Shown here in pieces: positions 23,338 through 43,374 of a stretch of DNA of 64,000 nucleotides. The notes below the pieces were generated by a model. That model searched no databases, was not told the origin of the DNA, and saw nothing but the letters and a program-made list of their open reading frames with translations. A program made the translations under genes and the position numbers. Location: contig NZ_CP053435.1 of NCBI RefSeq assembly GCF_013127955.1, positions 1,736,001 to 1,800,000 of the forward strand, in the 5' to 3' direction. Numbering within the stretch: the stretch's first letter is position 1; each line of letters opens with the position of its first letter. The DNA is from Spirosoma taeanense (GTDB taxonomy: Bacteria > Bacteroidota > Bacteroidia > Cytophagales > Spirosomataceae).

Positions 23338-24072
23338 ATGCAACCCATTGAATTAGTGGTTTTTGATATGGCCGGCACTACCGTTACCGATCACCATGAA
23401 GTTGAGCGGTGCTTTGCGCAGGCAGCCGCCGAAACAGGTCTGTTCGTTACCGACGAACGGATTCTGGCTATGCAGGGCCTGGCTAAGCGGTATGTATTCG
23501 AGACGCTCTGGAAAGAGCAGCTGGGCGAACTGCACCCCGACGTTCGGGCGCATGTCGATGTCTCCTACGCGTCGTTCAGGCGGATTCTGGAAGATCATTA
23601 CCAGACGCAGGGCGCAACGCCCACGGAAGGGTGTCTGGAAACGTTGGCATATCTGCGGGAGCGGGGCATTGCCATTGCGCTCACTACCGGTTTCTACCGC
23701 GCCGTAACTGACATTATCCTCGACAAACTTGGCTGGCTGGCCGATCTTGACGGTCGGCGGGTGGGCCGTCCGGACAGTATGATTCAGGTATCCATTGCCA
23801 GCGACGAGGTGGAGCGTGGCCGACCCTACCCACTGATGATCGAGCGGGCCATGCACCTGCTGGGCGTCAATAACCCAAAGGCGGTTGTGAACGTTGGCGA
23901 TACGCCTTCTGATCTGCTGTCGGGCCGGGCGGCCGGCGTAGCCTTGAACCTCGGCGTAACGAACGGTACCCATTCTCTTGAGCAGCTTGAGGCTTACCCG
24001 TACGATTATCTGCTGGCGTCGCTGGCTGAGTTGCCGGCGCTGCTGGCCGAAAAAGAACTGGTTGCTGTGTAG
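23338..24072 (+). CDS. Phosphonatase-like HAD hydrolase (TIGR03351 type)
   Basis: 244 aa HAD phosphatase-fold enzyme. Motif I is VVFDMAGTTVTD with nucleophile Asp10, motif II LTTGFYR near 120, and motif IV NVGDTPSDLLSG near 184. The Met45-Gln-Gly-Leu-Ala-Lys50 segment lies where phosphonoacetaldehyde hydrolase PhnX has its Schiff-base Lys, so C-P bond hydrolysis is plausible. The family name phosphonatase-like hydrolase is from memory; the exact substrate is unproven. It is the first gene of the phosphonate-type locus, 51 bp before the FAD oxidoreductase. Confidence 0.82.
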   Translation: MQPIELVVFDMAGTTVTDHHEVERCFAQAAAETGLFVTDERILAMQGLAKRYVFETLWKEQLGELHPDVRAHVDVSYASFRRILEDHYQTQGATPTEGCLETLAYLRERGIAIALTTGFYRAVTDIILDKLGWLADLDGRRVGRPDSMIQVSIASDEVERGRPYPLMIERAMHLLGVNNPKAVVNVGDTPSDLLSGRAAGVALNLGVTNGTHSLEQLEAYPYDYLLASLAELPALLAEKELVAV

Positions 24073-24123
24073 CGGTTCCCAGCCTATAATGACTACCTCT
24101 ACGACCAAACCCCGAATCTATTC

Positions 24124-25275
24124 GTGGCTACTTACGATCTGATTATTGTCGGCGCGGGCGCGCTGGGCTCGTTTCATGCCTATCAGGCGGCCAAAGCTGG
24201 CCAGCGCGTCTTACTGCTGGAAAAAGACCGCTACCCCGTAGGGGCGACGGTACGTAATTTCGGGCAGGTCGTGCCATCCGGGCTGGCCGGGCGATGGTTC
24301 GATTACGGTCGCCGTAGCCTGGAGATTTACCGTACCATCCAGCGCGAAACTGACCTGACCGTGCGCGAAAACGGAACGGTCTATCTCGCGTCGGATGCGG
24401 ACGAGTGGACGCTGGCAAATGAACTGCATGACCGCTACGAGCGGATAGGCTATCCCAGCGAGTTGCTGAGCAAAGCGCAGTGTCTGGCTAACTATCCGGG
24501 GCTGCAACCGGATTACGTTATGGGCGGGCTGTTCTTTCCGGGCGAAATGAGCGTAGAGCCGGAGCAGATGATTCACCGGCTGATCGCGTTCATTCAGCGT
24601 AGATACGGCGTCGATTACCGGCCCGGCTCCCTCGTAATTGACTGCCAGTCGAATTATAGCGGAGCCATCGTGACGCTGGCCAACCGGCAGCGGTTTCAGG
24701 CCGGGCGGGTGCTGATCTGCGGGGGGCATGAGGTGCGGCTGTTGTTCCCGGAGGTACTGGCCGAGGCCGAACTGGTGGTCAGTAAACTGCAGATGCTGCT
24801 GGCTGAGCCGGTGCCGGGGCTGATCCTACCGGGGAATATCCTGACGGGGCTAACCATTCGGCGGTACGAAGCCTTTCAGGAGTGTCCGTCCTACGCCCGA
24901 CTGAAAACGCCCGAGCATCTGGCTGAACTCAAAAAATGGGGGATTCATATTCTGTTCAAGCAGGCGACGGATGGCTCAATCATCGTGGGCGACTCGCACG
25001 AATACGCCGATGCGACGCAGGCCGAAGACCTGGGCTATCACACGCAGGATTTTATCAACGACCTGATGCTGACCGAAGCCCGGCGGATTGTGCAGTTTCC
25101 GCTGACGATTCGTAAAACCTGGGCGGGGTTTTATAGCCAGACAACCGCCGAAATCTTCGAGCACGACATCGACGAGAACATCCGGATCGTAACGGGTATC
25201 GGCGGCAAAGGCATGAGCTCGGGCGCGGGGTATGCCGAAGACAGCATACGGCATTGGCTTGGGGTATCTGCATAG
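24124..25275 (+). CDS. FAD-dependent oxidoreductase, TIGR03364 (DadA-like, phosphonate-linked)
   Basis: 383 aa. A dinucleotide-binding motif LIIVGAGALGSFHAYQAAKA at the N-terminus, then VGATVRNFGQVVPSG, a long substrate domain, and GIGGKGMSSGAGYAED near the C-terminus to hold the flavin. It belongs to the DAO/DadA group that oxidises amines. The TIGR03364 clade is known to sit beside phosphonatase-like hydrolases, as here, and would oxidise an aminophosphonate to the aldehyde that the hydrolase cleaves. This coupling is inferred from order. Confidence 0.82.
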   Translation: MATYDLIIVGAGALGSFHAYQAAKAGQRVLLLEKDRYPVGATVRNFGQVVPSGLAGRWFDYGRRSLEIYRTIQRETDLTVRENGTVYLASDADEWTLANELHDRYERIGYPSELLSKAQCLANYPGLQPDYVMGGLFFPGEMSVEPEQMIHRLIAFIQRRYGVDYRPGSLVIDCQSNYSGAIVTLANRQRFQAGRVLICGGHEVRLLFPEVLAEAELVVSKLQMLLAEPVPGLILPGNILTGLTIRRYEAFQECPSYARLKTPEHLAELKKWGIHILFKQATDGSIIVGDSHEYADATQAEDLGYHTQDFINDLMLTEARRIVQFPLTIRKTWAGFYSQTTAEIFEHDIDENIRIVTGIGGKGMSSGAGYAEDSIRHWLGVSA

Positions 25276-25396
25276 AAGCCCGCGCGCGATACGTGCAAAA
25301 TAACCCGGACTTCCAGATTAAGCGAGCATGAACTTTCTGGAGATTTCGTTCACAAATGATTGACAATCAGTCAACAGTGGCGTAATAGTGCGATTG

Positions 25397-25404
25397 TACT
25401 TTTG
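25397..25404 (+). promoter_or_regulatory. -7 promoter box before SusC gene
   Basis: TACTTTTG matches TAnnTTTG, 34 bases before the SusC ATG at 25439. It lies in the 163-base gap after the oxidoreductase, the largest gap in the early part of the locus, so susCD may have its own promoter. A TTGAC/GTCAA inverted repeat (25360-25374) lies just upstream. Confidence 0.45.
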
Positions 25405-25438
25405 CAGGAACACCCAACTAAGGCTAACCTGTAAATGT

Positions 25439-28400
25439 ATGAAAGAACTATCTTTACGTTTATCCCTGCCCCCATCCGCACGCCTGCACCAGCGGGCGCG
25501 TCTGCTGGTCGGTATTGTTACGCTGACGTTTCTATCCGCGCTGTTGTCGGCGGTGGCCGCTCAGGCTCAGTCAGTGAGCGGTCGCGTTGTATCGGCCGAT
25601 GACCAGCAGCCACTGCCGGGCGTATCGATTGTGGTGAAGGGCACCAGCACCGGTACAACGAGCCGCGCCGATGGTACCTATAGTCTGAACGCGGTGAGTC
25701 CGCAGGCCACGCTGACGTTTTCGTTCATTGGCTACGAAACGCAGGAAATCACCGTTGGTAACCGCAGCACGATCGACATCAATCTGACAGGCAGTCCCAA
25801 AGCCCTGAATGAAGTCGTCGTAACGGCTTTTGGCATCAAGAAAGACATACGTCAGACGGGCGTCGCCATTCAAACCCTCGACGGAGCCAGCGTTATCAAA
25901 GCCCGCGAGCCCAACCCAATCAACTCGCTGGTGGGTAAGGTGGCGGGCCTGACCATCGGACCGAGCGCCGAACTGCTGCGCCGACCCAACATTGTTCTTC
26001 GTGGGAATACCGACGTGCTGTTTGTGGTCGATGGGGTTCCGGTCAATTCTGATACCTGGAACATCAGCCCCGACGATATTGAAACTTATTCGGTCCTGAA
26101 AGGAGCCTCGGCTTCGGCGCTCTATGGGTTCCGGGGTAAGAACGGCGCCATCCTGATCACGACCAAGCGGGGTACAAAAGACAAGCGGGGCTTCTCGGTC
26201 GACGTCAACACAAGCCAGATGTTCGACAATGGGTTTCTGGCTATTCCTAAACTGCAAAATGAATACGGGCCCGGCGACCACGGGGTTTATGCTTTTGCCG
26301 ATGGGCGCGGGGGCGGCTATAACGACGGCGACTACGATATCTGGGGGCCACGCTTTGAAGGGCAGCTGATTCCGCAGTACGACAGCCCGATTATGCCTGG
26401 ACAGACCTTCACGACCACCTTCCCGAACCCGGCCGTGAAACCGTTCGTCAGTAACCGCCAGCCGACACCGTACGTAGCCCGGGGTGCCAATAACCTGTCG
26501 CGCTTTATTCAGACGGGTATTCTCTCGACCAATAATGTAGCCGTTTCCTCGTCGGGCGAGAAGTACGACCTGCGCTTTTCGCTCTCGCATACGTATCAGA
26601 AAGGGCTGGTGCCGAACACCAAGCTCAACAGCACGACCTTCAAGATTTCGTCGGGCTACAACTTCACGGATCGGTTGCGGTTTGCGGCCGACATCCAGGT
26701 GAACCGGCAGTACACCCCGAATATTCCGGACATTAATTATGGGCCCAACTCGCTGATTTATAACGTAGGTATCTGGGGCGGAGCCGACTGGGATGTCGAT
26801 GAGCTGAAAAACTACTGGCAGCCGGGTAAGGAAGGTATCCAGCAGATTTACGCCGAATACCAGCGTTATAATAACCCCTGGTTTGTGTCGAAAGAGTGGC
26901 TACGGGGGCACTATAAAACCGATATTATTGGCCAGACGTCGCTGAACTATAACCTGGCGCCGGGCCTCGACGCAACCCTGCGGACGCAGGTTTCGACCTG
27001 GAATCTGCTGCGGACCGAGAAAATGCCCTATTCGGCAACCGCCTATGGCCGGGAGGAAGCCCGCGGAGATTACCGCGAAGACCGCCGGAACCTGATCGAT
27101 AACAACACCGATCTGCTGATTAAATTCAACCGGCAGGTTGTACCCGCCCTGACCGTCAACGCCATTGCTGGTGGGAACCTGCGGCTGTACAACTACAACT
27201 CGAACTTTACCTCGACCAACTACCTGAACGTACCCGGCGTGTACACCTTCGCCAACTCGGCCAATCCGCTCATTGCGTCCAGCTATTCGGCCAATATGCG
27301 GGTGCTGTCGGCTTACTATTCCGCCGATTTTACTCTGCGCGACCGCGTGACGCTCTCGACGACGGGGCGGATGGATAAGCTGTCTACCTTGCCCAGGGGC
27401 AACAATACCTTCTTTTATCCCTCGGTGGCCCTGAGCACGGTCGTGTCAGATTACGTAAAGCTGCCCGATGCTATTTCATTCCTGAAGCTACGGGCTTCGT
27501 TTGCCAACGTAAAAGACGCGCTGACCCAGGCCACAATCGGAATTCCGCAGTTTCCGCTGGGCTATGGCGAGCAGTATATGTCGGCCTATGACGGTCCGAC
27601 TTACCAGAACTCGGCGGTTTACAGCACTCCGCTGACCTACAACAACCAGCCGTCGGCCTACTACACCAATACGCTGAACAACCCTAACATTAAACCGAAC
27701 TCGACCTCGCAGGTTGAAGCCGGTCTGGATATGCGTTTCCTGAGCAACCGGCTCACGTTTGATGCCGCCTACTACATCAGCAACGATGGACCGCGCATCT
27801 TCAACCTGCCGATTTCTGAAACAACGGGCTATGCATCCCTGCTCGTGAACGGCATCAAAACCCAGAAAAAAGGCGTTGAACTTTCGCTGACGGGAAAGGC
27901 CCTGCGTAGTGCCAGCGGACTGAACTGGGACGTCCTGGTGAACTGGTCTACCTATACCGAACGGTATAAGGAGTTTTATCCGGGCGTATCATCGCTGAAC
28001 ACGTTCTTTAAAGTGGGCGACCGCGTTGACAAGTACTACACCAATACGTTCGTGTACACGCCCGATGGGCAGATCATCAATGATGCCGGTGGCCGCCCGA
28101 TCATTGGGCCCGTCGCTCAGTTTGTGGGGTATATCAATCCGGACTGGGTATGGGGCGTCAACAACCGCTTCAGCTATAAAGCCCTTACGTTCAGCTTCCA
28201 GTTCGACGGGCGCGTGGGGGGTGTTATTTCCGACTATGTGCAGCAGAAGACCTACGCTGGTGGCCGGATCATCAATACCGTGCAGGGCGTTATGGGCGAA
28301 GCTCGTCGGCAGGATGTTCTGGGCGTGAAGTCCTACGTTGGCGAAGGCGTCCAGATTTCAAACAACGGGAAGATCAACTACGATGCCGATGGCAACGTAA

Positions 28401-28729
28401 CGAACTACGGCGAGCTGCAATTTGCGCCCAACACCACCAAAGCGTTTCTGCAGGACTATATCGCCCGGCGGTATGGTTTCGACGGCGGCAACCTCATCAG
28501 CCGCAGCTTTGCCAAACTCCGCGAAGTGGTGATCGGCTACAGCCTGCCCGCCCCCCTGCTGAACCGGATCGGGGTTAAACAGGCGTCGATCTCGTTTGTG
28601 GGCCGTAACCTGCTCTATTTTGCCGAGAAGAAAGACATTGACATCGACCAGTTCACCAACGGTGGCCGTTCGGACCTGCAAACGCCAACTACCCGCCGGT
28701 ACGGGATTAACCTGAATCTGACCTTCTAA
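25439..28729 (+). CDS. SusC/RagA-family TonB-linked outer membrane transporter
   Basis: 1096 aa from MKELSLRLSLPP. Signal peptide to about residue 43, then a carboxypeptidase-like plug extension (VSGRVVSADDQQPLPGVSIVVKG), the SusC box region (ALNEVVVTAFGIKK), a plug domain and a 22-strand-type beta-barrel ending in an aromatic-terminated strand (GINLNLTF). With the SusD lipoprotein it forms a lid-and-barrel importer powered by TonB. The neighbours suggest a phosphonate- or phosphoester-bearing substrate. The upstream Met at 25388 is rejected because it precedes the -7 box. Confidence 0.93.
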   Translation: MKELSLRLSLPPSARLHQRARLLVGIVTLTFLSALLSAVAAQAQSVSGRVVSADDQQPLPGVSIVVKGTSTGTTSRADGTYSLNAVSPQATLTFSFIGYETQEITVGNRSTIDINLTGSPKALNEVVVTAFGIKKDIRQTGVAIQTLDGASVIKAREPNPINSLVGKVAGLTIGPSAELLRRPNIVLRGNTDVLFVVDGVPVNSDTWNISPDDIETYSVLKGASASALYGFRGKNGAILITTKRGTKDKRGFSVDVNTSQMFDNGFLAIPKLQNEYGPGDHGVYAFADGRGGGYNDGDYDIWGPRFEGQLIPQYDSPIMPGQTFTTTFPNPAVKPFVSNRQPTPYVARGANNLSRFIQTGILSTNNVAVSSSGEKYDLRFSLSHTYQKGLVPNTKLNSTTFKISSGYNFTDRLRFAADIQVNRQYTPNIPDINYGPNSLIYNVGIWGGADWDVDELKNYWQPGKEGIQQIYAEYQRYNNPWFVSKEWLRGHYKTDIIGQTSLNYNLAPGLDATLRTQVSTWNLLRTEKMPYSATAYGREEARGDYREDRRNLIDNNTDLLIKFNRQVVPALTVNAIAGGNLRLYNYNSNFTSTNYLNVPGVYTFANSANPLIASSYSANMRVLSAYYSADFTLRDRVTLSTTGRMDKLSTLPRGNNTFFYPSVALSTVVSDYVKLPDAISFLKLRASFANVKDALTQATIGIPQFPLGYGEQYMSAYDGPTYQNSAVYSTPLTYNNQPSAYYTNTLNNPNIKPNSTSQVEAGLDMRFLSNRLTFDAAYYISNDGPRIFNLPISETTGYASLLVNGIKTQKKGVELSLTGKALRSASGLNWDVLVNWSTYTERYKEFYPGVSSLNTFFKVGDRVDKYYTNTFVYTPDGQIINDAGGRPIIGPVAQFVGYINPDWVWGVNNRFSYKALTFSFQFDGRVGGVISDYVQQKTYAGGRIINTVQGVMGEARRQDVLGVKSYVGEGVQISNNGKINYDADGNVTNYGELQFAPNTTKAFLQDYIARRYGFDGGNLISRSFAKLREVVIGYSLPAPLLNRIGVKQASISFVGRNLLYFAEKKDIDIDQFTNGGRSDLQTPTTRRYGINLNLTF

Positions 28730-28770
28730 TTCAGGGGCAATACTGCCCCGGCTCATAAATGACTTTAGCC

Positions 28771-30363
28771 ATGAACATTTATAAACTGATAATACCGACG
28801 CTTGCCCTCGTCCTGCTGCTGACGGGCTGTGAGAAGTCGTTCGACGAACTCGAAAAAGACCCCAACCGCCCGGTCAATGCGCCCGCGTCGCTGGTGCTGC
28901 GGGGTATCCTGAACGATATGTACGATGCCAGCAACAGCCCGTCGGGCTTTGCGGGCGTAACCTATTCGCCCTGGGGTGCCGAGCAGCGCTACAACCAGTT
29001 TTACGCCAGTAACTACAACTATTACGCCACTAACGAATACGCCTGGACGACGACCTCGCTGAACTACTACACCCTCAAGGACATTCTCCGGATGGAAGCG
29101 GAGGCTAAGCGGGCCGGAGCCGCCGATGTGAATCCCTATTCGGCGCTGGGTAAGTTTCTGCGGGCTTTTTTCTACGAGAACATGACCCGACGGGTAGGTG
29201 ATGTGCCGCTTTCGGAAGCGCTGCAGGGACAGGCCGACCTGACGCCGAAATACGATGACCAGAAAACCGTTTATCTGCAGATTCTGAAGTGGCTTGATGA
29301 AGCTAATACCGACCTGACCACCATCATTGCCCGGGGAGACAACACGCTGGCGGGAGATTTTTATCTGAACAATGACCTGCGGAAGTGGCAGAAAGTGGTG
29401 AACACCTTTAAACTGCGCGTGCTGATCAGTCTAAGTCGGAAAGAAGCTGATCCGGATCTGAACATTAAGCAGAAGTTTGCCGAAGTGGTAGCTAACCCGG
29501 CTAAATATCCTGTGATGGCCGACATGAGCGATAACCTGCAGTTTATCTACAACAACGTAACCAAGTACCCGCGCAGCCAGGACACTTTTGGGCAGAATGC
29601 CACGCGGGAGAACATGGCCAAGACGTTCGTGGATGCACTGGTCGAACGCCGGGATCCGCGTATTTTTGTGGTGGCCGAGCCGGCAGCCGCCAGGCTGAAA
29701 GCTGGTCTCAAGCCAACCGATTTTGGAGCATTCGTTGGCGCCAGCTCCGGCGAAGACCTGCAGGATATGGCAACGAAGGCGCTCCAGGGCGAATATTCGT
29801 TTCAGAACCGGAAGCGTTACTACACCACCTATGCCGGCGAACCCGTATTTATCATTGGCTATCCGGAGCTGATGTTTAACATGGCCGAAGGGATCAACCG
29901 GGGGTGGGCAAGCGGGAATGCCGCCGACTTTTACCAGAAAGGAATCGCAGCGTCGATGAATTTTTATGGTCTGAAAGACGGCGACAATACCGTAACGTTT
30001 TCGCACGATGGCGGCATCGCCAGCTTCGATACCTATACCATCAACTTCAGCCTGAGCGATTACCTCGCTCAGCCGATTGTGAAGTACGCGGGCAACACGA
30101 CGGAAGGCCTGAACCAGATCCTGACGCAGAAATACCTGGCTTTTTTCCAGAACTCCGGTCTGGAAGCTTTCTTTAACCAGCGCCGGACGGGCGTGCCAAC
30201 GTTCCTGACGGGCGTGGGAACGGGTAACAGCGGCCAGATACCTAAGCGGTGGCGGTACCCGAACAACGAGCGGACGACGAACGGCGAGAACCTGAATGTG
30301 GCCCTGGCCGCGCAGTACGGTGGCGTCGACGATATCAACGCCACCATGTGGCTGCTGAAATAA
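28771..30363 (+). CDS. SusD/RagB-family outer membrane lipoprotein
   Basis: 530 aa from MNIYKLIIPTLALVLLLTGC, where LLTGC is a lipobox with Cys20. An ATG four codons upstream (28759) is also possible. It has the SusD-like fold type with TPR-like helices and belongs to the SusD/RagB homologous group that often includes PNRPVNAP near the N-terminus. It caps the SusC barrel encoded 41 bp upstream and binds the ligand. A 13-bp hairpin follows. Confidence 0.92.
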   Translation: MNIYKLIIPTLALVLLLTGCEKSFDELEKDPNRPVNAPASLVLRGILNDMYDASNSPSGFAGVTYSPWGAEQRYNQFYASNYNYYATNEYAWTTTSLNYYTLKDILRMEAEAKRAGAADVNPYSALGKFLRAFFYENMTRRVGDVPLSEALQGQADLTPKYDDQKTVYLQILKWLDEANTDLTTIIARGDNTLAGDFYLNNDLRKWQKVVNTFKLRVLISLSRKEADPDLNIKQKFAEVVANPAKYPVMADMSDNLQFIYNNVTKYPRSQDTFGQNATRENMAKTFVDALVERRDPRIFVVAEPAAARLKAGLKPTDFGAFVGASSGEDLQDMATKALQGEYSFQNRKRYYTTYAGEPVFIIGYPELMFNMAEGINRGWASGNAADFYQKGIAASMNFYGLKDGDNTVTFSHDGGIASFDTYTINFSLSDYLAQPIVKYAGNTTEGLNQILTQKYLAFFQNSGLEAFFNQRRTGVPTFLTGVGTGNSGQIPKRWRYPNNERTTNGENLNVALAAQYGGVDDINATMWLLK

Positions 30364-30375
30364 ATCTGACTTAAA

Positions 30376-30416
30376 AGGTAGCTGGTGCGAAATCAAACCC
30401 TTTGCACCAGCTACCT
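30376..30416 (+). terminator. Intercistronic hairpin after susD
   Basis: AGGTAGCTGGTGC (30376-30388) pairs perfectly with GCACCAGCTACCT (30404-30416) over a 15-nt loop. There is no T run. It could be an attenuator or protect the susCD part of a longer transcript. Confidence 0.5.
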
Positions 30417-30436
30417 GCAATTACTATAATCGCTTC

Positions 30437-31354
30437 ATGAACCGCAGAACCCTTCTCAAAACGGCCGGCCTGCTGCCCATCGCTGCCGCGCCCGGCCTGA
30501 TTACGTCTCCTGCCTTGGCCCGTAAACTGCTGACCCGCTTTGCCTATATCGGCGATACACACATCACGGCGCAGCTTAAGCCTATGGAAGCCATTGCCCG
30601 GTGTCTGCATCATGCCCAGGATCAGGCCGACAAGCCGACGTTTATGCTGCATGGGGGCGACGTGATAATGGACGCGCTGGCGCAGGACCGCGACAAGGTA
30701 ACGAAGCAGTGGACCGCGTGGCATGAGGTGGTAAAAGCCGACAACTCTCTGCCCGTTGAGTACTGCATCGGCAATCATGACGTATGGGGCTACGAGAACG
30801 CCAAAAATGATCCGCTTTACGGCAAAAAATGGGCCGTTGACCAGATGCAGATCAGCGGTCGCTACCGGAGCTTCGATCGGAATGGCTGGCATTTTATTAT
30901 GCTCGATAGTGTTCAGCCGACCCCCGAGGGCAAGTGGTACACGGGCCATATCGATCCCGAACAGATGGCCTGGCTGAAGCAGGATCTGGCGGTAACGGAC
31001 TCTAAAACGCCGGTTCTGGTTCTGTCGCATATTCCGATCGTATCGGCAACGGTCTTCTATGATAAAGCCAACGTAAAGAACGGCAACTGGCAGATTCCGG
31101 GCAGCTGGAACCATACCGACGCCGTTGATCTGATCGGCCTGTTCTACCAGTATCCCAATGTGCGGGCCTGCCTCAGCGGGCATATGCACCTGCTGGATCG
31201 GGTAGAATACAACGGGGTAACGTATTTCTGCAACGGAGCCGTGAGTGGCAACTGGTGGAATGGGGATACCTACCACGAAACCAAAGCGGGTTACGCGCTC
31301 TTTGACCTCTACGACGACGGCAGCATCGAACGGACGTATCTGCCCTATGCGTAA
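30437..31354 (+). CDS. Secreted calcineurin-like metallophosphoesterase
   Basis: 305 aa. The N-terminus MNRRTLLKTAGLLPIAAAPG looks like a Tat-type or Sec signal. The metallophosphoesterase motifs are in order: YIGDTHI (DxH) near residue 37, HGGDVIMD (GD) near 75, IGNHD (GNHD) near 113, LSHIPIV near 195 and SGHMH (GHxH) near 247. It would hydrolyse phosphomono- or diesters in the periplasm, supplying the phosphonate locus. It lies 73 bp after susD. Confidence 0.88.
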   Translation: MNRRTLLKTAGLLPIAAAPGLITSPALARKLLTRFAYIGDTHITAQLKPMEAIARCLHHAQDQADKPTFMLHGGDVIMDALAQDRDKVTKQWTAWHEVVKADNSLPVEYCIGNHDVWGYENAKNDPLYGKKWAVDQMQISGRYRSFDRNGWHFIMLDSVQPTPEGKWYTGHIDPEQMAWLKQDLAVTDSKTPVLVLSHIPIVSATVFYDKANVKNGNWQIPGSWNHTDAVDLIGLFYQYPNVRACLSGHMHLLDRVEYNGVTYFCNGAVSGNWWNGDTYHETKAGYALFDLYDDGSIERTYLPYA

Positions 31355-31419
31355 CTTGGCGGGTAAACCGCCGATGAGTGTAGGGGCTATTCCTTACGTT
31401 GCGTTTAGCTTGTCTGTCT

Positions 31420-31959
31420 ATGGAAACCATTGCCCAACTTTTTGCCCAAAGCGGCCAGGACGCTTATTTCGGGGAGCCTGTTACGCAGCTTGAACACGCG
31501 CTGCAGTGCGCCCAACTGGCCGAACAGGCCGGAACGGATGCCGACACCGTCGTAGCGGCTTTCCTGCACGACATTGGTCACCTGCTGCCCGCCGAAACCG
31601 CCGATGGCTACATGGATGGCTACGGTACGATTGACCACGAACGGCTGGGAGCCGACTGCCTGCGGAAACTGGGCTTTTCGGAAAAGGTCGCGCAGTTGAT
31701 CGAGAACCATGTAAACGCCAAACGGTACCTGGTTTTTAAGAACCCGGATTACTTCGCCCGCCTGTCGGAAGCCAGTCTGAAAACGCTGGTCTTTCAGGGA
31801 GGGCCAATGACGACCGACGAAGCCGCTGCGTTTGAACGTAACCCGTATTTTCGCGAAATTCTTCAGGTGCGGGGCTGGGATGAACAGGCCAAAATACCGG
31901 GTCTACCCACGCAGGGCGTGGACTACTACCTTGATTTATGCCGTCGGCAACGCAATTGA
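31420..31959 (+). CDS. PhnZ-like HD-domain oxygenase (phosphonate degradation HDIG protein)
   Basis: 179 aa from METIAQLF; the frame extends 21 bases upstream but this ATG fits the family. HD ligands are seen: His26, His50-Asp51 (HDIGH), His73 and His97 (ENH). The Y16-F-G-E19 pair aligns, as I recall it, with Tyr24/Glu27 of PhnZ, the mixed-valent di-iron enzyme that oxidatively cleaves 1-hydroxy-2-aminoethylphosphonate to glycine and phosphate. The constant offset of 7-8 residues supports this. No PhnY hydroxylase is in the window, so the substrate may differ. The next gene starts one base after its stop. Confidence 0.82.
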   Translation: METIAQLFAQSGQDAYFGEPVTQLEHALQCAQLAEQAGTDADTVVAAFLHDIGHLLPAETADGYMDGYGTIDHERLGADCLRKLGFSEKVAQLIENHVNAKRYLVFKNPDYFARLSEASLKTLVFQGGPMTTDEAAAFERNPYFREILQVRGWDEQAKIPGLPTQGVDYYLDLCRRQRN

Positions 31960-31960
31960 T

Positions 31961-34702
31961 ATGAGCAACTCCTTCTACTTTTTTTTCCTCCTGCTTACCC
32001 TTCCCGCCTTCGCTCAGAAGACGTACACAACGCTGCAGGTGCCCGGTCGTGCGGAGTTCTGCAGCATTGACCCGGCTGGTAAATCGGTATTACCCAGCGG
32101 ACGCTACGTTAGTCCGGCGGGTAATACGATCCGCGTGACCAACGATCCATTCGGGATGGCACTCGCACCCAACGGTCAGCGCGCCGTTTTGCTGCACGAC
32201 GGCGTTCTGACGGTGATGGACCTGACAAAGGCCCCGAAGGCCATCCGCGTGCCTGACTATGCCGGTACGATCCCCCCTGTGCTGAAAGGCGGTTCATTTC
32301 TGGGCGTTGCCTTTGCACCCGACAACCGCACGGCCTACCTCAGCAATGGCGACAAAGGGCGCGTGCTGGTTTTTGATACCGATGCACTTCGACTGGTGGA
32401 CAGCATTAGCCTGGATGGCAACGGCTACGAAGACAGCTTTACGTCGGACCTGCTGCTGAACGGCAATGAACTGCTGGTACTCGACCGGGCCAATTTCCGG
32501 CTCGTCCGGATTGACCGGGCCACCCAGCGCATTACGGCCTCAATTCCAACCGGACGGCAGCCGTTCGGGCTGGCTCTCAGCCCCGACCGGAAGCTTGCTT
32601 TTGTGGCGAACGTGGGTCTGTATGTGTATCCGAAAGTGCCGGGCGTAACCAGAACCAACAAAGACACGATGGCCCTGAAATTTCCACCCTACGCGGCTCA
32701 TACGAAAGAGTCGGCCGAGGGAGTTGAAGCCGAAGGGCGACGGATTCCGGGACTGGGCAGTCCGCTGGCCGACGAGGCCATGAGCGTCTGGACAGTAGAC
32801 CTGGCAACGAATAAGGTTGTTAATCGCTTCAAGACCGGCGTGCAGATTGGTGAGATGATTGAGGAGGCCGAAGTGGTTGGCGGGGCCTCGCCCAACTCAG
32901 TGGCCGTGGGGGGGCGCTATGCCTACGTCTCCAACGCAACCAACGATAACCTCTCGGTGATTGATTACCGAACCCGCAAACTGGCAGGCACAATTTCGCT
33001 CCGTATCGACCCAAAGCTGGACCGCTACCGGGGCCTGATGCCGTTCGGACTGACGCTGACCGCCGACCAGAAAACGATTTACGTCGCCCTGCTGGCGCTC
33101 AACGCCGTTGCCGTCGTGGATGTTCCGACCCGTCGGGTCCGGGGCCTGATTCCTACGGGTTGGGGACCAACGCGCGTGGCGCTTTCTCCCGACGAAAAAA
33201 CGCTTTACGTTACGTCTGCCCGGGGCTACGGTGCCGGGCCGAACGGTGGGCAGAGTTTCGTGAAACCCCCGCAGGGAACATACATCGGCGACATTCAGCT
33301 CGGCACGTTTCAGGCCATCCCGGTGCCCACACTGGTTCAACTGGCGGTTTATACAAAGCAGGTGCTGGCCAACACCTATCAGACCGTTGCGCTCACCGAC
33401 AACGGCCGGAATCCGCTGCCGGTGCTGCCTAAAACGCGGCTGTCGCCAATCAAACACATTGTATATATCACCAAGGAAAACCGCACCTACGATGAAGTGC
33501 TGGGGCAACTGGCAACCGGCCGGGGCGATTCGACGCTGGCGCGGTTCGGGACGGGCGTAACGGTGCGGAGCCGGATTGCGACCAGCCGGGGCACCAGCGG
33601 CCGGACGAATGACCAGCCCGGCGATACGGTACGGATTACAGCCGCCGACATTTCGCCCAACCACGTTCACATTGCCCGCCAGTTTGCCTTCTCCGATAAT
33701 TTCTACTGCGATTCGGATGCCAGTATCCACGGACACCACTGGATGATGGGTACTATCCCGAACGAGTGGGTAGAGGCCAATGCTGCGTCGGAAGGGCGAT
33801 TCGACGCCTTTTCGAAAGCGCCCGGCCGGCGGTTTCCGAAAACGACCGGTGCCATCGACCCCGAAGATTACAACGAAATTGGCGGGCTGTGGGAAGCCCT
33901 GGAGCGAAACCGGGTTTCGTTTTTCAACTTCGGCGAGGCCAACGAGTATGCCGGGTCGGTGGAGGAGTGGACTACCACGCAGTTCGGTGCTGCGCAGTCG
34001 GTGGTGTTTCCGATGCCCAAGGCCGTCTATCCGCACACTTCGCGCAATTATGCGGGCTACAACACGAACATCCCCGACCAGTACCGGATGGAGCAGTTTG
34101 AACAGGAGTTCACGGCAAAATGGCTTAACGGTAAACAGACTATGCCGCAGCTCGTTACGGTCATGATTCCGAACGATCATGGCGCCAGCCCGCGTCCGGA
34201 TTTCGGTTACCCGTATCTGCACTCCTACATGGCCGATAACGACCTGGCGCTGGGCCGGATTCTGCACTTTCTGTCGCGCACCAAATACTGGAAGAACATG
34301 CTCGTGGTTGTTACCGAAGATGACCCGCAGGGGGGCGTTGATCACATTGATGCGCACCGCTCGCTGCTGATGCTGGCCGGGCCGTATGTCAAACGCGGGT
34401 ACGTGTCGCATACGCACGCCAACTTTGGCTCCATCCTCAAAGTGATCTACAACATCCTGGGCGTTGGCTACGTGAACCAGTACGATCTGACGGCCTCGCT
34501 GCTGCAGGATTTCTTTACCGACAAACCCGACTTCCGGCCGTACGATGTCGTCCTGCCTGATGGGCGTATTTTCGATCCGCAGCAGGCGATGAAACCCTAC
34601 AAAAAGCCATTCGACTGGCGTAAAATCCAGAAAGGCCCGGAGATGGACGACCGCGCTGACCAGCGGGCCGAGCATTACCGGCAGCAGAACGAAGGCAACT
34701 AA
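31961..34702 (+). CDS. Bifunctional YncE beta-propeller / phosphoesterase family protein
   Basis: 913 aa from MSNSFYFFFLLLTLPAFAQ, which is a signal peptide. Residues about 30-480 are YVTN/YncE-like propeller blades (GMALAPNGQRAVLLHDG, GLALSPDRKLAFVAN, RVALSPDEKTLYVTS). From about 515 is a phosphoesterase domain of the phospholipase C/AcpA type: HIVYITKENRTYDEVLG with the metal-binding Glu-Asn and Thr nucleophile, then SIHGHHWM, MIPNDHGASPR and VTEDDPQGGVDHIDAHRS. It likely cleaves phosphoesters in the periplasm. It overlaps operonically with the PhnZ-like gene (1-bp gap). Confidence 0.87.
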   Translation: MSNSFYFFFLLLTLPAFAQKTYTTLQVPGRAEFCSIDPAGKSVLPSGRYVSPAGNTIRVTNDPFGMALAPNGQRAVLLHDGVLTVMDLTKAPKAIRVPDYAGTIPPVLKGGSFLGVAFAPDNRTAYLSNGDKGRVLVFDTDALRLVDSISLDGNGYEDSFTSDLLLNGNELLVLDRANFRLVRIDRATQRITASIPTGRQPFGLALSPDRKLAFVANVGLYVYPKVPGVTRTNKDTMALKFPPYAAHTKESAEGVEAEGRRIPGLGSPLADEAMSVWTVDLATNKVVNRFKTGVQIGEMIEEAEVVGGASPNSVAVGGRYAYVSNATNDNLSVIDYRTRKLAGTISLRIDPKLDRYRGLMPFGLTLTADQKTIYVALLALNAVAVVDVPTRRVRGLIPTGWGPTRVALSPDEKTLYVTSARGYGAGPNGGQSFVKPPQGTYIGDIQLGTFQAIPVPTLVQLAVYTKQVLANTYQTVALTDNGRNPLPVLPKTRLSPIKHIVYITKENRTYDEVLGQLATGRGDSTLARFGTGVTVRSRIATSRGTSGRTNDQPGDTVRITAADISPNHVHIARQFAFSDNFYCDSDASIHGHHWMMGTIPNEWVEANAASEGRFDAFSKAPGRRFPKTTGAIDPEDYNEIGGLWEALERNRVSFFNFGEANEYAGSVEEWTTTQFGAAQSVVFPMPKAVYPHTSRNYAGYNTNIPDQYRMEQFEQEFTAKWLNGKQTMPQLVTVMIPNDHGASPRPDFGYPYLHSYMADNDLALGRILHFLSRTKYWKNMLVVVTEDDPQGGVDHIDAHRSLLMLAGPYVKRGYVSHTHANFGSILKVIYNILGVGYVNQYDLTASLLQDFFTDKPDFRPYDVVLPDGRIFDPQQAMKPYKKPFDWRKIQKGPEMDDRADQRAEHYRQQNEGN

Positions 34703-34754
34703 ACGCCGGGTAACCTCTGTACGGGAACCCTTTATCTTTCCAACTTTTCATCGG

Positions 34755-36998
34755 ATGGTTCAACTCTATACGTTCCTGCTGTGTCTGTTTGTTAGCTCTG
34801 GGTATGCCCAAACGCTTACCGGTCTGGTAAAGGATAACCGCACCAACCGGCCACTGGCGGGGGTAACGGTGCAGCTTCTAACGACAACGAAGGGAACGCA
34901 GACGGATGCGCAGGGGCGTTTTTTGTTTCAATCGTTACCCGAAGGAAGTTACCGGCTCAGCCTGAGTTCCGTAGGGTATCGTACCCACGAGCAGCGCGTA
35001 ACGTTGACCGGGGAGCCATCCGGCGAGGTGATAATTACCCTGGAGCCCGCCGTTCTTCAACTGAATGAGCAGATGGTTACCACGGCCCAGCGGAGCGAGA
35101 CTCCGGATTTTGTCCGGCCGGAAATAACGACGGTCCTCACCAGCCGCGACCTTCGGCAGCGCTCGCCCAGAACCGTGCCCGAAGCGTTGTTCGGAGCGAC
35201 GGGCGTCTGGCTGCAGAAGACGACCCATGGCGGAGGCTCGCCGTTTGTACGCGGCCTGACGGGTCAGCAGACGCTCCTGCTGGTGGATGGTATCCGGCTT
35301 AACAACGCGACGTTCCGCTCGGGGCCGAACCAGTACCTGAACACCATCGACCCGCAGAGCGTCGGGCAGATAGAGGTCGTGCGCAGCAGCGGCTCGGTAG
35401 CCTACGGCTCTGATGCCATCGGGGGCGTGGTGAATGTCTTCACGAAGACCCCGCAGTTCAGGGATCAGCGCGGCTTTTCGGGCAGCGTTTTTGTGAAAGC
35501 GGCTACGCAGGGTATGGAGGCCACCGGTCGTGCTGAGCTGGACTATCAGTCGCCTGGCGTAGCCGTGCTGGGCGCCATCGCTTACCGCAAATTTGGTGAT
35601 CTGGTGGCGGGGCAGGGAATCGGCCGTCAGGCACCCACGGGTTATAACCAGCTTTCGGGCGATGTGAAGGCCCGCTTCCGGTTGTCGGACCGGTACCGGC
35701 TGACCGTCGCCTATCAGGATCTCAACCAGGACAGCGTACCTGTTTACTACCGTGTCAAACTGGAAAATTACGCCTATTACCAGTTTAACCCGCAACGGCG
35801 GCAACTGGGTTACGCGCGTCTGGAAGGATTTTTTAACCGGCGGTTTCTGCATACTGTGGAACTGACAACCTCCTGGCAGCGCCAGACCGAAGGGCGGCAG
35901 AGCCAGCGAAACGGCAACCCAACGGCCGTTTATGAGCGCGACGAAACTACCACCACGGGGCTTACGCTGCTGGCCCGTGCGAGTCCGGCCCGCAACTGGC
36001 AGATGCAGAATGGAGTGGAATGGTATTTCGACCGGGTGCGCAGCGGGCGCGAGGATTTCAATACACAAACCGGCATCGGAACGCTCAAACGGGGACTTTA
36101 TCCCGACCGGGCGACCATGAGCAGTCTGGGCGTGTTCTCGCTGCATACAGTTACGGTAAAGCGGCTCACCCTGACGGCGGGTGGCCGCTACAACGCTTTC
36201 CGGATTGTTACCCCGGAAGCTACGCTGGGTCAGGCCAGCATCCGGCCGTCGGCACTGGTAGGTAACCTCGGGGCTTCGCTGGCGCTGCTGTCGACTGTTC
36301 GGCTGGTGGGCTCGGTGCAGTCGGCGTTCCGCGCCCCGAACGTCGATGACCTGGGTACCCTCGGGATTGTGGATTTTCGGTATGAAGTCCCGAACCCGGC
36401 GCTGCAGCCTGAGCGGTCATTTAACAAAGAGGCAGGCGTAAAAATCCGTACCCAACGATTTTCGGCTCAGGTGCTGGCGTATCATAACCACCTGAGCAAC
36501 TTTATCAGCCGGGTTCGGGCCGGCCGGGATTCCATTCAGGGGTACCCGGTTTATCTGAAGCAGAACAGCGCGGAGTCGTTCATTCGGGGGCTGGAAGCCG
36601 AAGCCGAGTATGAACTGGTCGCCAACTGGCTTGCCTACGCGGGCATGACCTACACCTACGGTCAGAACGTGTCGGCGAACGAACCCTTCCGGCGGATTCC
36701 ACCCCTGAACGGCCGTGTGGGACTGACCTATCAGTCGGCAGGCTGGTGGGCGCGGGCTGAACTGCTGTACGCCGGGGCACAAACCCGGCTGGCCAGGGGC
36801 GATCAGGACGACAACCGCATTGCAAAAGGGGGCACGCCTGCCTGGCAGGTCATCAACCTCAACGGCGGCTACCGCTGGCGTGGGCTAACCATTAGCGCCG
36901 AACTTCAGAACCTGACCAACGAAGCGTATCGCACGCACGGCTCAGGACTGGACGGCGTTGGACGGAGTGCGTGGCTGTCGGTGTTGGTCGGTTTCTAG
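34755..36998 (+). CDS. TonB-dependent outer membrane receptor (non-SusC)
   Basis: 747 aa. Signal peptide (1-18), a carboxypeptidase-like domain (LTGLVKDNRTNRPLAGVTV), a plug with TVPEALFGATGVWLQKT ... VRGLTGQQTLLLVDGIRLNN ... SVAYGSDAIGGVVNV, and a barrel ending LSVLVGF. The layout resembles vitamin B12/siderophore receptors (BtuB/CirA class), without a SusD partner. It follows the phosphoesterase by 52 bp and could import a released metal or phosphonate-bound ligand. Confidence 0.9.
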   Translation: MVQLYTFLLCLFVSSGYAQTLTGLVKDNRTNRPLAGVTVQLLTTTKGTQTDAQGRFLFQSLPEGSYRLSLSSVGYRTHEQRVTLTGEPSGEVIITLEPAVLQLNEQMVTTAQRSETPDFVRPEITTVLTSRDLRQRSPRTVPEALFGATGVWLQKTTHGGGSPFVRGLTGQQTLLLVDGIRLNNATFRSGPNQYLNTIDPQSVGQIEVVRSSGSVAYGSDAIGGVVNVFTKTPQFRDQRGFSGSVFVKAATQGMEATGRAELDYQSPGVAVLGAIAYRKFGDLVAGQGIGRQAPTGYNQLSGDVKARFRLSDRYRLTVAYQDLNQDSVPVYYRVKLENYAYYQFNPQRRQLGYARLEGFFNRRFLHTVELTTSWQRQTEGRQSQRNGNPTAVYERDETTTTGLTLLARASPARNWQMQNGVEWYFDRVRSGREDFNTQTGIGTLKRGLYPDRATMSSLGVFSLHTVTVKRLTLTAGGRYNAFRIVTPEATLGQASIRPSALVGNLGASLALLSTVRLVGSVQSAFRAPNVDDLGTLGIVDFRYEVPNPALQPERSFNKEAGVKIRTQRFSAQVLAYHNHLSNFISRVRAGRDSIQGYPVYLKQNSAESFIRGLEAEAEYELVANWLAYAGMTYTYGQNVSANEPFRRIPPLNGRVGLTYQSAGWWARAELLYAGAQTRLARGDQDDNRIAKGGTPAWQVINLNGGYRWRGLTISAELQNLTNEAYRTHGSGLDGVGRSAWLSVLVGF

Positions 36999-37100
36999 AA
37001 AATCGCTTTATTGAAAGCCGATGGCCACCCGTGGTGCATGCCGGACTATGTGGCAGTTCTGAATGACGCCCGGTGGCAACCGACAACCTGAAGCAGACTC

Positions 37101-38378
37101 ATGACAAAATCGTTTCTTCGCCACCCCACCGTTTTTATGCTTTTTGGCGCAACGGCTGCCTTTTGTACGTATGCCTGCATGTACGCGTTCCGGAAAGGGA
37201 TCACTGCCGTTACATTCGAAGGGCTGGCGTTTGCGGGCATCAGTTACAAAATATGGCTCATTACGGCGCAGGTACTGGGCTACGCGGCTTCCAAACGAAT
37301 TGGTGTCAAGGTGGTGTCGGAGATGTCGCCGGGACGCCGGGCGGCCAATATCCTGCTGTTTATCGGCTGCGCTGAACTGGCACTGCTGGGATTCGCGCTC
37401 GTTCCTGCTCCTTACAACATTATTTTCCTGTTTCTGAACGGCCTGCCGCTGGGTATGGTGTACGGGATTATGCTCGGCTTTCTGGAAGGTCGCCGACAAA
37501 CCGATGCATTAGTGGCGGGACTGACCGCTTCGTTTATTTTTGCGTCGGGCTTTGTTAAAACGGTCGCTCTGACCATCCGGGCCGATTGGGGGGTGTCGGA
37601 GTTCTGGCTGCCGTTCGTGACGGGACTGCTGTTTGTGCCGCCCCTGCTGCTGGCCGTGTATGCCCTGACGCTGCTGCCCCCGCCCACGGCCGAGGACCGT
37701 GCCCTGCGCACCGAACGACGACCCATGGATGCCAACGAGCGCCGGGCGTTTGTGCGCAACTTCGGGCCGGGGCTGGTACTGCTCATTGCGTCTTACGTGC
37801 TGCTGTCGGCCTTCCGGGATTTTCGAGACAACTTCGGCCCCGAGATCCTGCGCGATGCCGGGGTGGAAAATGCCGGGATTTTTGCCCGCACCGAAACGCT
37901 GGTAGCCGTTGGGGTCTTGATTGTTATGGCCCTGCTGCAGCGCGTAACGAATAACTTCCGGGCCTTCATGCTGCTGAACGGGATCATGCTGGCGGGCGGG
38001 CTGCTGGTGGGCGTCAGTACCTGGGCGTACTCAACGGGACTACTGAGTCCGGGCACCTGGTTTCTGCTGACGGGGCTGGGGCTGTATATGGGCTATGTAC
38101 CCTGCAACGGGCTGTACTTCGAGCGGCTGGTTGCTGCCTTCCGTTACGTCAGCACCGTCGGCTTCATCGTAACGCTGGCGGACTGGTATGGCTACCTGGG
38201 CAGCGTGGCCGTGCTGCTATACAAAAACTTCGGACAGGCGTCCATCAGTTTCCGCGAGTTCTTTGTAAACGGAGCTTACATCCTGTCGGTGGTATACGGT
38301 GTGCTGGTCATCCTTTCGTTTCTCTATTTCCGGCAACGATACCGCCAGGAGCCGGTTGTCGCGGAGCCAGTGGCTTGA
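37101..38378 (+). CDS. DUF5690-family MFS-like transporter
   Basis: 425 aa with about 12 hydrophobic segments. The start has CTYACMYAFRKGITAVTF, resembling the organophosphate:phosphate antiporter (GlpT/UhpT) N-terminal pattern with a YAFRK motif. The C-terminal tail is hydrophilic. As a member of the DUF5690 group it may move an organophosphate or phosphonate across the inner membrane, which would suit the locus. The function is inferred. Confidence 0.75.
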   Translation: MTKSFLRHPTVFMLFGATAAFCTYACMYAFRKGITAVTFEGLAFAGISYKIWLITAQVLGYAASKRIGVKVVSEMSPGRRAANILLFIGCAELALLGFALVPAPYNIIFLFLNGLPLGMVYGIMLGFLEGRRQTDALVAGLTASFIFASGFVKTVALTIRADWGVSEFWLPFVTGLLFVPPLLLAVYALTLLPPPTAEDRALRTERRPMDANERRAFVRNFGPGLVLLIASYVLLSAFRDFRDNFGPEILRDAGVENAGIFARTETLVAVGVLIVMALLQRVTNNFRAFMLLNGIMLAGGLLVGVSTWAYSTGLLSPGTWFLLTGLGLYMGYVPCNGLYFERLVAAFRYVSTVGFIVTLADWYGYLGSVAVLLYKNFGQASISFREFFVNGAYILSVVYGVLVILSFLYFRQRYRQEPVVAEPVA

Positions 38379-40995: not shown

Positions 40996-41538
40996 GTGAA
41001 ACGACGTAGTGCTCTTCTAAATCTGGCCGGAGCCGTTGGCGGCCTAATCAGCCTGCCGGCCTGGGCCAGCGGCTGGACATCCGAAACGGTCCGTCCCCTC
41101 AACCCGTTTTTGTCGCGCAGTCAGGACGAGCTGCTGGCCGATCTGGCCGAAACCATTATCCCGGCAACCGACACGCCCGGCGCCAAAGCCCTGAACGTTC
41201 ATCAGTTTATTCAGAAAGTTGTGGCCGACTGCTACGACAAACCATCTGCCGAAACCTTCCGGAAAGGACTGGCCGCTGTCGACGAACTGGCGCAGAAGTC
41301 ATTCGGGAAGCCGTTCAGTCAGGGCGACACTACCCAGCGCATCGGCGTTCTGAACCAGCTCGCGCAGTCGACGGATGCGGACCAGAAAAACTTCTACTCG
41401 ATGGTGAAGGGGTTAACGATTCGGGGCTACATGAGCTCGGAATACGTCATGACCAACCTGACTCATTATGAGATGATACCCGGCCGCTACCACGGCTGCG
41501 TTCCGGTTCCGGCCAAACCCATTTCCCAAACAAAATAA
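40996..41538 (+). CDS. Gluconate 2-dehydrogenase subunit 3 family protein
   Basis: 180 aa with a GTG start; the ATG at 40984 is followed at once by a stop in its frame. The N-terminus KRRSALLNLAGAVGGL resembles a Tat signal. The rest is the small-subunit fold (LLADLAETIIPATDTPGAKALNVHQFI ... YYDK-like). It partners the GMC oxidoreductase encoded 53 bp downstream and probably carries it through the Tat pathway as a complex. Confidence 0.87.
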   Translation: MKRRSALLNLAGAVGGLISLPAWASGWTSETVRPLNPFLSRSQDELLADLAETIIPATDTPGAKALNVHQFIQKVVADCYDKPSAETFRKGLAAVDELAQKSFGKPFSQGDTTQRIGVLNQLAQSTDADQKNFYSMVKGLTIRGYMSSEYVMTNLTHYEMIPGRYHGCVPVPAKPISQTK

Positions 41539-41591
41539 TTGTCATTGGTTGTCAGCTGCAATGAATGACTACGCAATGACTTTTCAATAGC

Positions 41592-43304
41592 ATGGCATAT
41601 CTGAATATTGACGCTCAGGCTCAGAATACCTACGACGCCATCGTGATTGGCTCGGGCATTAGTGGCGGCTGGGCCGCTAAAGAATTAACCGGCAAAGGCT
41701 TACGTACGCTTGTCCTGGAGCGGGGCCGCGATGTCCGGCACGTAACCGATTACCCCACCACGATGATGCAGCCTTGGGAATTTGAACACCGGGGGCAGCT
41801 GAACCGGGAGGTTCGCGAACAGAATCCCATCATCAGCAAGTGCTACGCTTTCTACGAAGGAACCGAGCAGTTTTTCGTCAAGGACGCCGAGCATCCCTAC
41901 GTACAGGAAAAGCCCTTTGACTGGATTCGGGGATATCAGGTGGGCGGAAAGTCGCTGCTGTGGGCTCGGCAAACGCAGCGGTGGAGTGATTTCGACTTCA
42001 CCGGACCTGCCCGCGATGGCTTCGCCGTCGACTGGCCAATTCGTTACGCCGATCTGGCTCCCTGGTACAGCTACGTAGAGCGGTTTGCCGGTATTACCGG
42101 CAACAAAGACGGCCTGGATACGCTGCCCGACGGGGAGTTCCTGCCTCCGCACGAGTGGAACTGCGTTGAAAGTCATTTCCAGAAGCAGGTGGCGGCCCGT
42201 TACAAAGACCGGCATGTGATCATGGGTCGTGCGGCTCACATCACGCAGCCTCAGCCCATTCATCTTCAGCAGGGCCGGGCGCAGTGCCAGCACCGGACGA
42301 TCTGCGAACGCGGCTGCCCGTTTGGCGGCTACTTCAGCAGCAACTCCTCGACGCTGCCCTGGGCCGCAAAAACGGGTAAGATGACGTTACGTCCGCATTC
42401 GGTGGTGCACTCGATCATTTACGACGAGAAGCTGGGCCGGGCAACGGGTGTGCGGGTCATTGATGCCCAGACGAAGCAGATGCAGGAGTTTTATGCCCGC
42501 ATCATTTTCCTGAATGCAGCCGCGCTGAACTCCAACCTTGTCCTGCTCAACTCGACCTCAACCCGGTTCCCGAATGGTCTCGGTAACGACAGCGGGGTGC
42601 TGGGTAAATACGTAGCGTTCCACAATTACCGGGCGGGTGTTTCGGCGCAGTACGACGGCAACCTCGACACCACGACCGAAGGCCGGCGGCCCAACAGTCC
42701 CTACATTCCGCGTTTCCGGAATGTGTATAAGCAGGAAACCGACTTCCTGCGGGGCTATGCCGCCGGTTTCTCGGCCGGACGTATTTCGCGTTCCAACCAG
42801 GATGGCTTGGGCGCTGATCTGAAAGAAAGTCTGCTGAACCCAACGCTGGGCGGCTGGTATGTTGGCTCGCACATGATGGGCGAGACAATCCCGAAAGAAT
42901 CAAATTTTGTCGCACTCGATTCGTCGCAGAAAGATCCATTCGGCATCCCGCAACTGAAAATCTCCATTGCCTACGACGATAATGACGAGAAGATGGTGAA
43001 GGATTACCAGGAGCAGATGACCGAAATGTTTACGGCGGCCGGCTTCACCAATATCCGCGTTCGCGACGACAAGCGTAATCCGGGTCTGGACATCCACGAA
43101 ATGGGCGGTGCCCGCATGGGTAAAGACCCCAAAACGTCGGTGCTGAACAAGTGGAACCAGCTTCATGCGGTAAAGAATGTTTTCGTGACCGACGGCGCCA
43201 GCATGACCTCGACGTCAACGCAGAACCCATCGCTGACGTATATGGCTATGACGGCCCGGGCCGCCGATTATGCCGTGAAGGGTCTGAAAAAAGGCCTGGT
43301 GTAA
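41592..43304 (+). CDS. GMC-family FAD oxidoreductase (gluconate/sugar dehydrogenase large subunit)
   Basis: 570 aa. The FAD motif is YDAIVIGSGISGGWAAKEL near residue 14, then LVLERGRDV, the QVGGKSLLWARQTQRWSDFDF segment near 115, and a C-terminal HEMGGARMGKDPKTSVLNKWNQLH with catalytic-His region and the VTDGASMTSTSTQNPSLTYMAMTARAADYAV end. It oxidises an aldose or polyol and passes electrons to the periplasmic chain with the small subunit just upstream. It has no signal of its own, consistent with hitch-hiking on the partner's Tat signal. Confidence 0.92.
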   Translation: MAYLNIDAQAQNTYDAIVIGSGISGGWAAKELTGKGLRTLVLERGRDVRHVTDYPTTMMQPWEFEHRGQLNREVREQNPIISKCYAFYEGTEQFFVKDAEHPYVQEKPFDWIRGYQVGGKSLLWARQTQRWSDFDFTGPARDGFAVDWPIRYADLAPWYSYVERFAGITGNKDGLDTLPDGEFLPPHEWNCVESHFQKQVAARYKDRHVIMGRAAHITQPQPIHLQQGRAQCQHRTICERGCPFGGYFSSNSSTLPWAAKTGKMTLRPHSVVHSIIYDEKLGRATGVRVIDAQTKQMQEFYARIIFLNAAALNSNLVLLNSTSTRFPNGLGNDSGVLGKYVAFHNYRAGVSAQYDGNLDTTTEGRRPNSPYIPRFRNVYKQETDFLRGYAAGFSAGRISRSNQDGLGADLKESLLNPTLGGWYVGSHMMGETIPKESNFVALDSSQKDPFGIPQLKISIAYDDNDEKMVKDYQEQMTEMFTAAGFTNIRVRDDKRNPGLDIHEMGGARMGKDPKTSVLNKWNQLHAVKNVFVTDGASMTSTSTQNPSLTYMAMTARAADYAVKGLKKGLV

Positions 43305-43316
43305 CCAGCGCTGGTT

Positions 43317-43374
43317 AACCGCTACTAACTGCAAAAGCCAGTCACATGACTGGCTTTTGCAGTTAGTAGCGGTT
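43317..43374. terminator. 28-bp perfect bidirectional terminator between convergent genes
   Basis: Arms 43317-43344 and 43347-43374 are perfect complements with a 2-nt spacer. The AAAA/TTTT runs are internal. It separates the GMC gene from the convergent PQQ dehydrogenase gene. Confidence 0.85.

Follow-up and report, generated by a model that had tools for sequence, protein, structure and literature searches.

A predicted aminophosphonate-scavenging locus with its own SusCD pair in Spirosoma taeanense

Lipids and glycans that carry bound 2-aminoethylphosphonate (AEP) form a large natural pool of phosphonate, and for phosphonates bound in this way we know of no route through the outer membrane. 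Might the locus described here encode one? It comprises nine intact genes, all on the + strand, at positions 23338-38378 of a 64,000-nt stretch of Spirosoma taeanense DNA (the window). The genes encode a phosphonatase-like HAD protein, an FAD-dependent oxidase, a SusCD pair, two phosphoesterases, a PhnZ-like HD protein, a second TonB-dependent receptor and a carrier of family DUF5690. An earlier note on the window had described a one-strand phosphonate-use locus, and domain searches recovered all nine families in the places it had assigned them. We consider it likely that these genes form an aminophosphonate-scavenging system built like a phosphate utilisation system (PUS), with a six-step route predicted from the sequence.

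The ligand, a molecule that bears a phosphonate and is probably the head group of a phosphonolipid or a piece of a phosphonoglycan, would cross the outer membrane through SusC, with SusD as its lid and perhaps with the second TonB receptor taking part. The YncE-phosphoesterase and the metallophosphoesterase, judging from their families and recurrent position, would be exported and would cut the P-O ester, freeing AEP, N-methyl-AEP and 1-hydroxy-AEP (HAEP). Its fold and gene associations suggest that the DUF5690 protein would move the free aminophosphonates across the inner membrane. An oxidase of the PbfD family would convert N-methyl-AEP, and probably AEP, to phosphonoacetaldehyde, as shown for other members of the family. 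Conserved residues predict that the PhnX-like HAD protein would split phosphonoacetaldehyde into acetaldehyde and phosphate, and that the PhnZ-like oxygenase would turn imported (R)-HAEP into glycine and phosphate without PhnY*. The parts are of known kinds; their assembly, the SusCD clade and the assignment of DUF5690 go beyond the descriptions that we found. A dedicated outer-membrane importer lineage and an inner-membrane carrier role for DUF5690, a family to which no function had been assigned, are new predictions, and the part of the literature on AEP and TonB-dependent transport in Bacteroid groups that our search reached describes no phosphonate importer of this kind. The locus thereby names candidate parts: a SusCD clade, hydrolases for phosphonate esters and a role for DUF5690.

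Predicted catabolic enzymes and the gaps around them

The putative phosphonatase (23338..24072), a HAD protein resembling phosphonoacetaldehyde hydrolase, matches TIGR01422 at 101 bits and PhnX itself (2iof) at E 1.5e-16 in a phmmer search. The nucleophile motif DxAGT is present as D10-M-A-G-T (DMAGTT), and Lys50 of the cap (GLAK) aligns with the lysine that forms the Schiff base in Bacillus PhnX. The adjoining predicted FAD-dependent (N-methyl-)AEP oxidase (24124..25275) scores 358 bits against TIGR03364, above the cut-off of 285. TIGR03364 is the PbfD family, whose members were shown to oxidise N-methyl-AEP to phosphonoacetaldehyde, one of them also AEP (PMC10590968). Such a pair is known from the PbfD-PhnX pathway (Zangelmi et al. 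2023, PMC10590968), where a TIGR03364 oxidase likewise adjoins a phosphonatase without PhnW, and FCB bacteria were already named there among the holders of PbfD. The Spirosoma locus differs in that its phosphonatase belongs to the PhnX-like branch, and it adds the SusCD pair, the second TonB-dependent transporter, the phosphoesterases, DUF5690 and the PhnZ-like oxygenase. TIGR03364 oxidases are above the cut-off in 166 of 200 genomes sampled from the source organism's family. Searches for PhnW or C-P lyase may therefore greatly underestimate how common phosphonate use is in these bacteria.

The earlier note had seen no PhnW, PhnY or C-P lyase gene. For PhnW and C-P lyase (PhnJ) this holds for the whole genome (5.72 Mb, 99% complete): nothing came near the PhnW cut-off, and no PhnJ, TauD, PbfA or phosphoenolpyruvate (PEP) mutase was found. 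PhnW would not be needed, because PbfD makes phosphonoacetaldehyde (PMC10590968). Phosphonate synthesis by the organism itself was rejected as a reading, PEP mutase being missing. For PhnY the statement stands for the locus, which holds no PhnY*. Seven homologues of PhyH, the superfamily of PhnY*, lie elsewhere in the genome; the six that were scanned (the seventh, a 172-codon frame, was left out) had no match in NCBIfam, a scan in which PhnY* itself was not compared. As read from the sequence, the gene set appears to cover all the chemistry that AEP, N-methyl-AEP and (R)-HAEP require, with neither PhnW nor PhnY*, because PbfD replaces the former and PhnZ is known without the latter (PMC10590968, PMC8154272).

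The predicted di-iron HD oxygenase (31420..31959) matches PhnZ (4mlm, E 1.9e-45) more strongly than TmpB (6npa, E 5e-35), and with the models for TmpB and hydroxymethylphosphonate dioxygenase (NF049941 and NF052439) it reaches 165 and 134 bits, below the cut-off of 300. All of the 18 Bacteroidota sequences compared share the metal ligands H33, H57, D58, H80, H104 and D161, Tyr23 and Glu26 of the lid, Lys108 and Arg158, and the metal ligands and lid residues align to PhnZ. The tyrosine, glutamate and His/Asp ligands reported earlier are all confirmed by this alignment, Y16/E19 in the earlier numbering being Y23/E26 of the longest open reading frame (ORF). PhnZ has been described with phnWX and phnWAY clusters where PhnY* is missing, and never with PbfA (PMC8154272). 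With PhnZ and these clusters the Spirosoma protein shares the HD fold, the iron ligands, the Tyr/Glu lid residues and a phosphonoacetaldehyde route alongside without PhnY*; it differs in being paired with PbfD and SusCD, and its substrate is predicted. None of the clusters that we read combined HD and PbfA, in agreement with PMC8154272. Mutual exclusion of the two at genome level was rejected, both being present in 3 genomes, with 3.3 expected among DUF5690 holders. In Pseudomonas loci (e.g. L171:4850-10537; L and G numbers are our handles for loci and genomes) HD occurs with a TIGR03364 oxidase and an AEP-type ATP-binding cassette (ABC) transporter, PhnT2/PhnU2, instead, and no phosphonatase was identified among their neighbours.

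Recurrence of the gene set across Bacteroidota

TIGR03276, the model for the HD oxygenase, is found at full score in 12 of 296 sampled Bacteroidota genomes, the source genome included. Neighbourhoods of ~20 kb around TIGR03276, DUF5690 and TIGR03364 genes were read in other genomes. The HAD, FAD, HD and DUF5690 genes, SusCD and a phosphoesterase form a set that reappears across Bacteroidota families with varying order and orientation, among others in Larkinella, Runella, Telluribacter, Chitinophaga, Mucilaginibacter, Algoriphagus and Lewinella. This comparison across distant relatives bears out the earlier phosphonate-use reading. Some of the clusters add PhnW (564 bits, cut-off 401), PbfA (727 bits, cut-off 525) or PhnA. 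At L031 the HAD gene is replaced by PhnW, an aldehyde dehydrogenase and a PhnA-type PF01663 hydrolase, while HD, SusCD and DUF5690 are kept. The PhnW/PbfA clusters and L031 thus link both SusCD and DUF5690 with phosphonate chemistry in a way that does not depend on how HAD and FAD are annotated. On a plasmid of Hymenobacter, the genes for HD, SusC and SusD are joined by those for two alkaline-phosphatase-like enzymes, HAD, TIGR03364 and an XRE regulator.

Co-occurrence was counted in ~290 Bacteroidota genomes without the source genome, a SusD orthologue being a match at E <= 1e-90. DUF5690 is present in all 11 HD genomes (1.0 expected, p 6e-13), a SusD orthologue in 9 of the 11 (0.5 expected, p 4e-13) and DUF5690 in 8 of 10 PbfA genomes (p 8e-8), p-values that treat genomes as independent and ignore shared ancestry, which tells against our reading. 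A small XRE-cupin regulator was seen beside clusters in 18 of the first 50 loci (L094-L132, L133-L212; e.g. L132:10433-11011) and is absent from the window locus.

Candidate importer, ester hydrolases and carrier

The SusC-type transporter (25439..28729) scores 474 bits against TIGR04056, above the cut-off of 368, and also matches TIGR04057; its orthologues in phosphonate clusters are 44-78% identical. The SusD-like lipoprotein (28759..30363; PF12771, 236 bits) is 41-78% identical to cluster SusDs of other genomes, and its main matches among paralogues in its own genome are at most 33% identical, values of 34-45% being confined to short fragments. In a tree of 71 sequences, a single clade (support 98/94) unites the 41 near cluster SusDs and leaves out the own-genome paralogues. 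The cluster rows of the tree were picked by location and the orthologues of the E <= 1e-90 search were not; 10 of the 13 orthologues lie inside phosphonate clusters. The earlier claim that the SusCD pair is part of the locus is upheld by its recurrence in distant relatives, by the SusD clade and by the co-occurrence with HD. A second SusD lineage (15 sequences in the tree), 26-29% identical to the window SusD, recurs near the same genes (L139, L141, L153, L176, L183, L187 and L194) and may carry a different ligand. The second TonB-dependent receptor (34755..36998; PF00593/PF07715), which has a CarboxypepD-reg domain, has relatives 69-73% identical in L117 and L120 and 40-47% identical in Chitinophagaceae clusters.

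Two phosphoesterase genes follow SusD. The calcineurin-like metallophosphoesterase (30437..31354; PF00149), with the twin-arginine-like N-terminus MNRRTLLKTAG, is probably exported, and in L119 and L125 its position is taken by orthologues 71-74% identical. The second (31961..34702) fuses a YncE beta-propeller with TIGR02276 repeats to a PF04185-type phosphoesterase; its N-terminus resembles a signal peptide, and its orthologues in clusters are 55-83% identical. Export of both was judged by eye from the N-termini. Enough downstream sequence was available for 52 cluster SusDs, and for 40 of these one of the next three genes on the same strand encodes a phosphoesterase (YncE-phosphoesterase, PF01663-type or metallophosphoesterase). 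PhoD-like or PhoA-like enzymes lie near SusD in other clusters (L034, L123). Because unrelated phosphoesterase families replace one another at the same position, the sequences suggest one needed step, cleavage of a P-O ester before inner-membrane uptake. The structure model of the phosphoesterase domain is poor (predicted local distance difference test, pLDDT, 58.5), and its nearest solved chain by sequence is an acid phosphatase (E 2.7e-5). HAEP occurs in a polysaccharide of Acanthamoeba and a sphingophosphonolipid of Bdellovibrio stolpii (cited in PMC8154272), and ligands of these kinds would fit. The earlier suggestion of a larger phosphonate-bearing ligand gains support from the recurrent phosphoesterase; the ligand itself is still an inference.

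The DUF5690 gene (37101..38378; PF18943, 505 bits) encodes the proposed aminophosphonate permease. Its AlphaFold2 model is confident (pLDDT 92) and has the fold of the major facilitator superfamily (MFS). The best Foldseek match is human G6PT/SLC37A4, a glucose-6-phosphate:phosphate antiporter (E 5e-8); the VIA Z of 32.8 ties with other MFS proteins. By sequence the profile matched no solved structure, and the comparison with GlpT was not significant (hhalign E 0.058, probability 0.95%). Arg31-Lys32 of the first transmembrane helix (TM1) falls opposite Arg45-Lys46 of GlpT, and Arg239 on TM7 is invariant. All four plasmid DUF5690 hits adjoin phosphonate genes (phnX and phnW in three Bacteroidales, TIGR03364 and phnX in Novosphingobium), and ~20 of 28 sampled chromosomal copies have one within ~10 kb. 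The GlpT-like DUF5690 carrier named in the earlier note held up in the comparison with distant relatives. We found no literature on DUF5690. DUF5690 resembles AepP, an AEP permease of the GlpT type (Murphy et al. 2021, PMC8316502), in being an MFS carrier that adjoins AEP catabolic genes and in its TM1 Arg-Lys pair, which falls opposite that of GlpT, but it is a separate Pfam family without significant sequence match to GlpT. More tentatively than for the locus as a whole, we propose that a SusCD clade specialised for phosphonate esters, exported ester hydrolases of the YncE-phosphoesterase/alkaline-phosphatase type and a hitherto unrecognised DUF5690 family of inner-membrane aminophosphonate permeases found in Bacteroidota and Alphaproteobacteria together make up a complete route for polymer- or lipid-bound phosphonates, from the outer membrane to C-P cleavage.

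Beside the shared ancestry noted above, several results weigh against the aminophosphonate-scavenging reading. Three of the 13 SusD orthologues have no phosphonate genes nearby, and one of the three has only an alkaline-phosphatase (AP)-type phosphoesterase beside it; because of these the SusCD ligand may be a general phosphate ester. No phosphonate gene was seen up to ~10 kb away from ~8 of the 28 DUF5690 genes sampled, and the HD protein is borderline for TIGR03276 (214.8 bits with a cut-off of 214.6, and 213.9 in a six-frame genome search). The SusCD pair, the second TonB-dependent transporter and the phosphoesterases could then be a general importer of organic phosphate esters of the PUS type, with the phosphonate enzymes as co-regulated neighbours and free aminophosphonates entering otherwise. 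Flavobacterium PusCD clusters (Lidbury et al. 2021, PMC8115612) serve organic phosphorus in general, and like them the Spirosoma locus has a SusCD-like pair beside phosphoesterases, phosphomono- and diesterases in Flavobacterium. The recurrence of the second, unrelated SusD lineage in clusters would fit such an importer, as would L254:8179-14172 in G007, where orthologous SusCD has only an AP-type phosphoesterase beside it and the genome matches neither HD nor DUF5690. We nevertheless regard a general importer as rather unlikely: most SusD orthologues lie inside phosphonate clusters, the SusD clade tracks the presence of HD, and the module is also together on a plasmid. PusCD clusters had already been noted near phosphonate-degrading enzymes (PMC8115612); the difference here would lie in the gene set described in full and the SusD clade that tracks it.

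Small polar solutes normally cross the outer membrane via porins. This, together with the unrelated phosphoesterase families found 3' of most cluster SusDs, makes it improbable that SusCD takes up free AEP or another small aminophosphonate while the phosphoesterases recover phosphate from unrelated esters, even though the catabolic enzymes act on small aminophosphonates and clusters such as L145 have no recognised phosphoesterase just 3' of SusD. The phosphonate label might also be an echo of annotation, the FAD, HAD and HD proteins acting as amine oxidase, phosphatase and phosphohydrolase on other substrates. The FAD and HAD superfamilies are broad, and the HAD protein, at 184 bits, is below the TIGR03351 cut-off of 219, a further point against an aminophosphonate-scavenging system. 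We consider such an echo very improbable, as in relatives these partners stand alongside genes for PhnW, PbfA and AEP ABC transporters that score above curated cut-offs, and the PhnX lysine and PhnZ ligands are conserved.

Gene starts, promoter and flanking genes

The likely starts are an ATG at 25439 for SusC, whose ORF opens with GTG at 25388, and 31420 and 31961 for the HD and YncE genes, the last being 1 nt past the HD stop. With these starts the intergenic gaps run from 1 to ~160 nt. A scan of the locus for promoters and terminators gave matches at background level. The sequence TACTTTTG at 25397-25404, 34 nt 5' of the likely SusC start, fits the Bacteroidota -7 element TAnnTTTG; the HAD and FAD genes may be transcribed separately as a pair. 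The locus is flanked on the 5' side by a histidine kinase and a LytTR regulator and on the 3' side by a beta-lactamase-family hydrolase, all regarded as outside it. At 40996-45585 lie a gluconate 2-dehydrogenase subunit 3-like gene and a GMC oxidoreductase, adjoined on the opposite strand by a pyrroloquinoline quinone (PQQ)/cytochrome c dehydrogenase.

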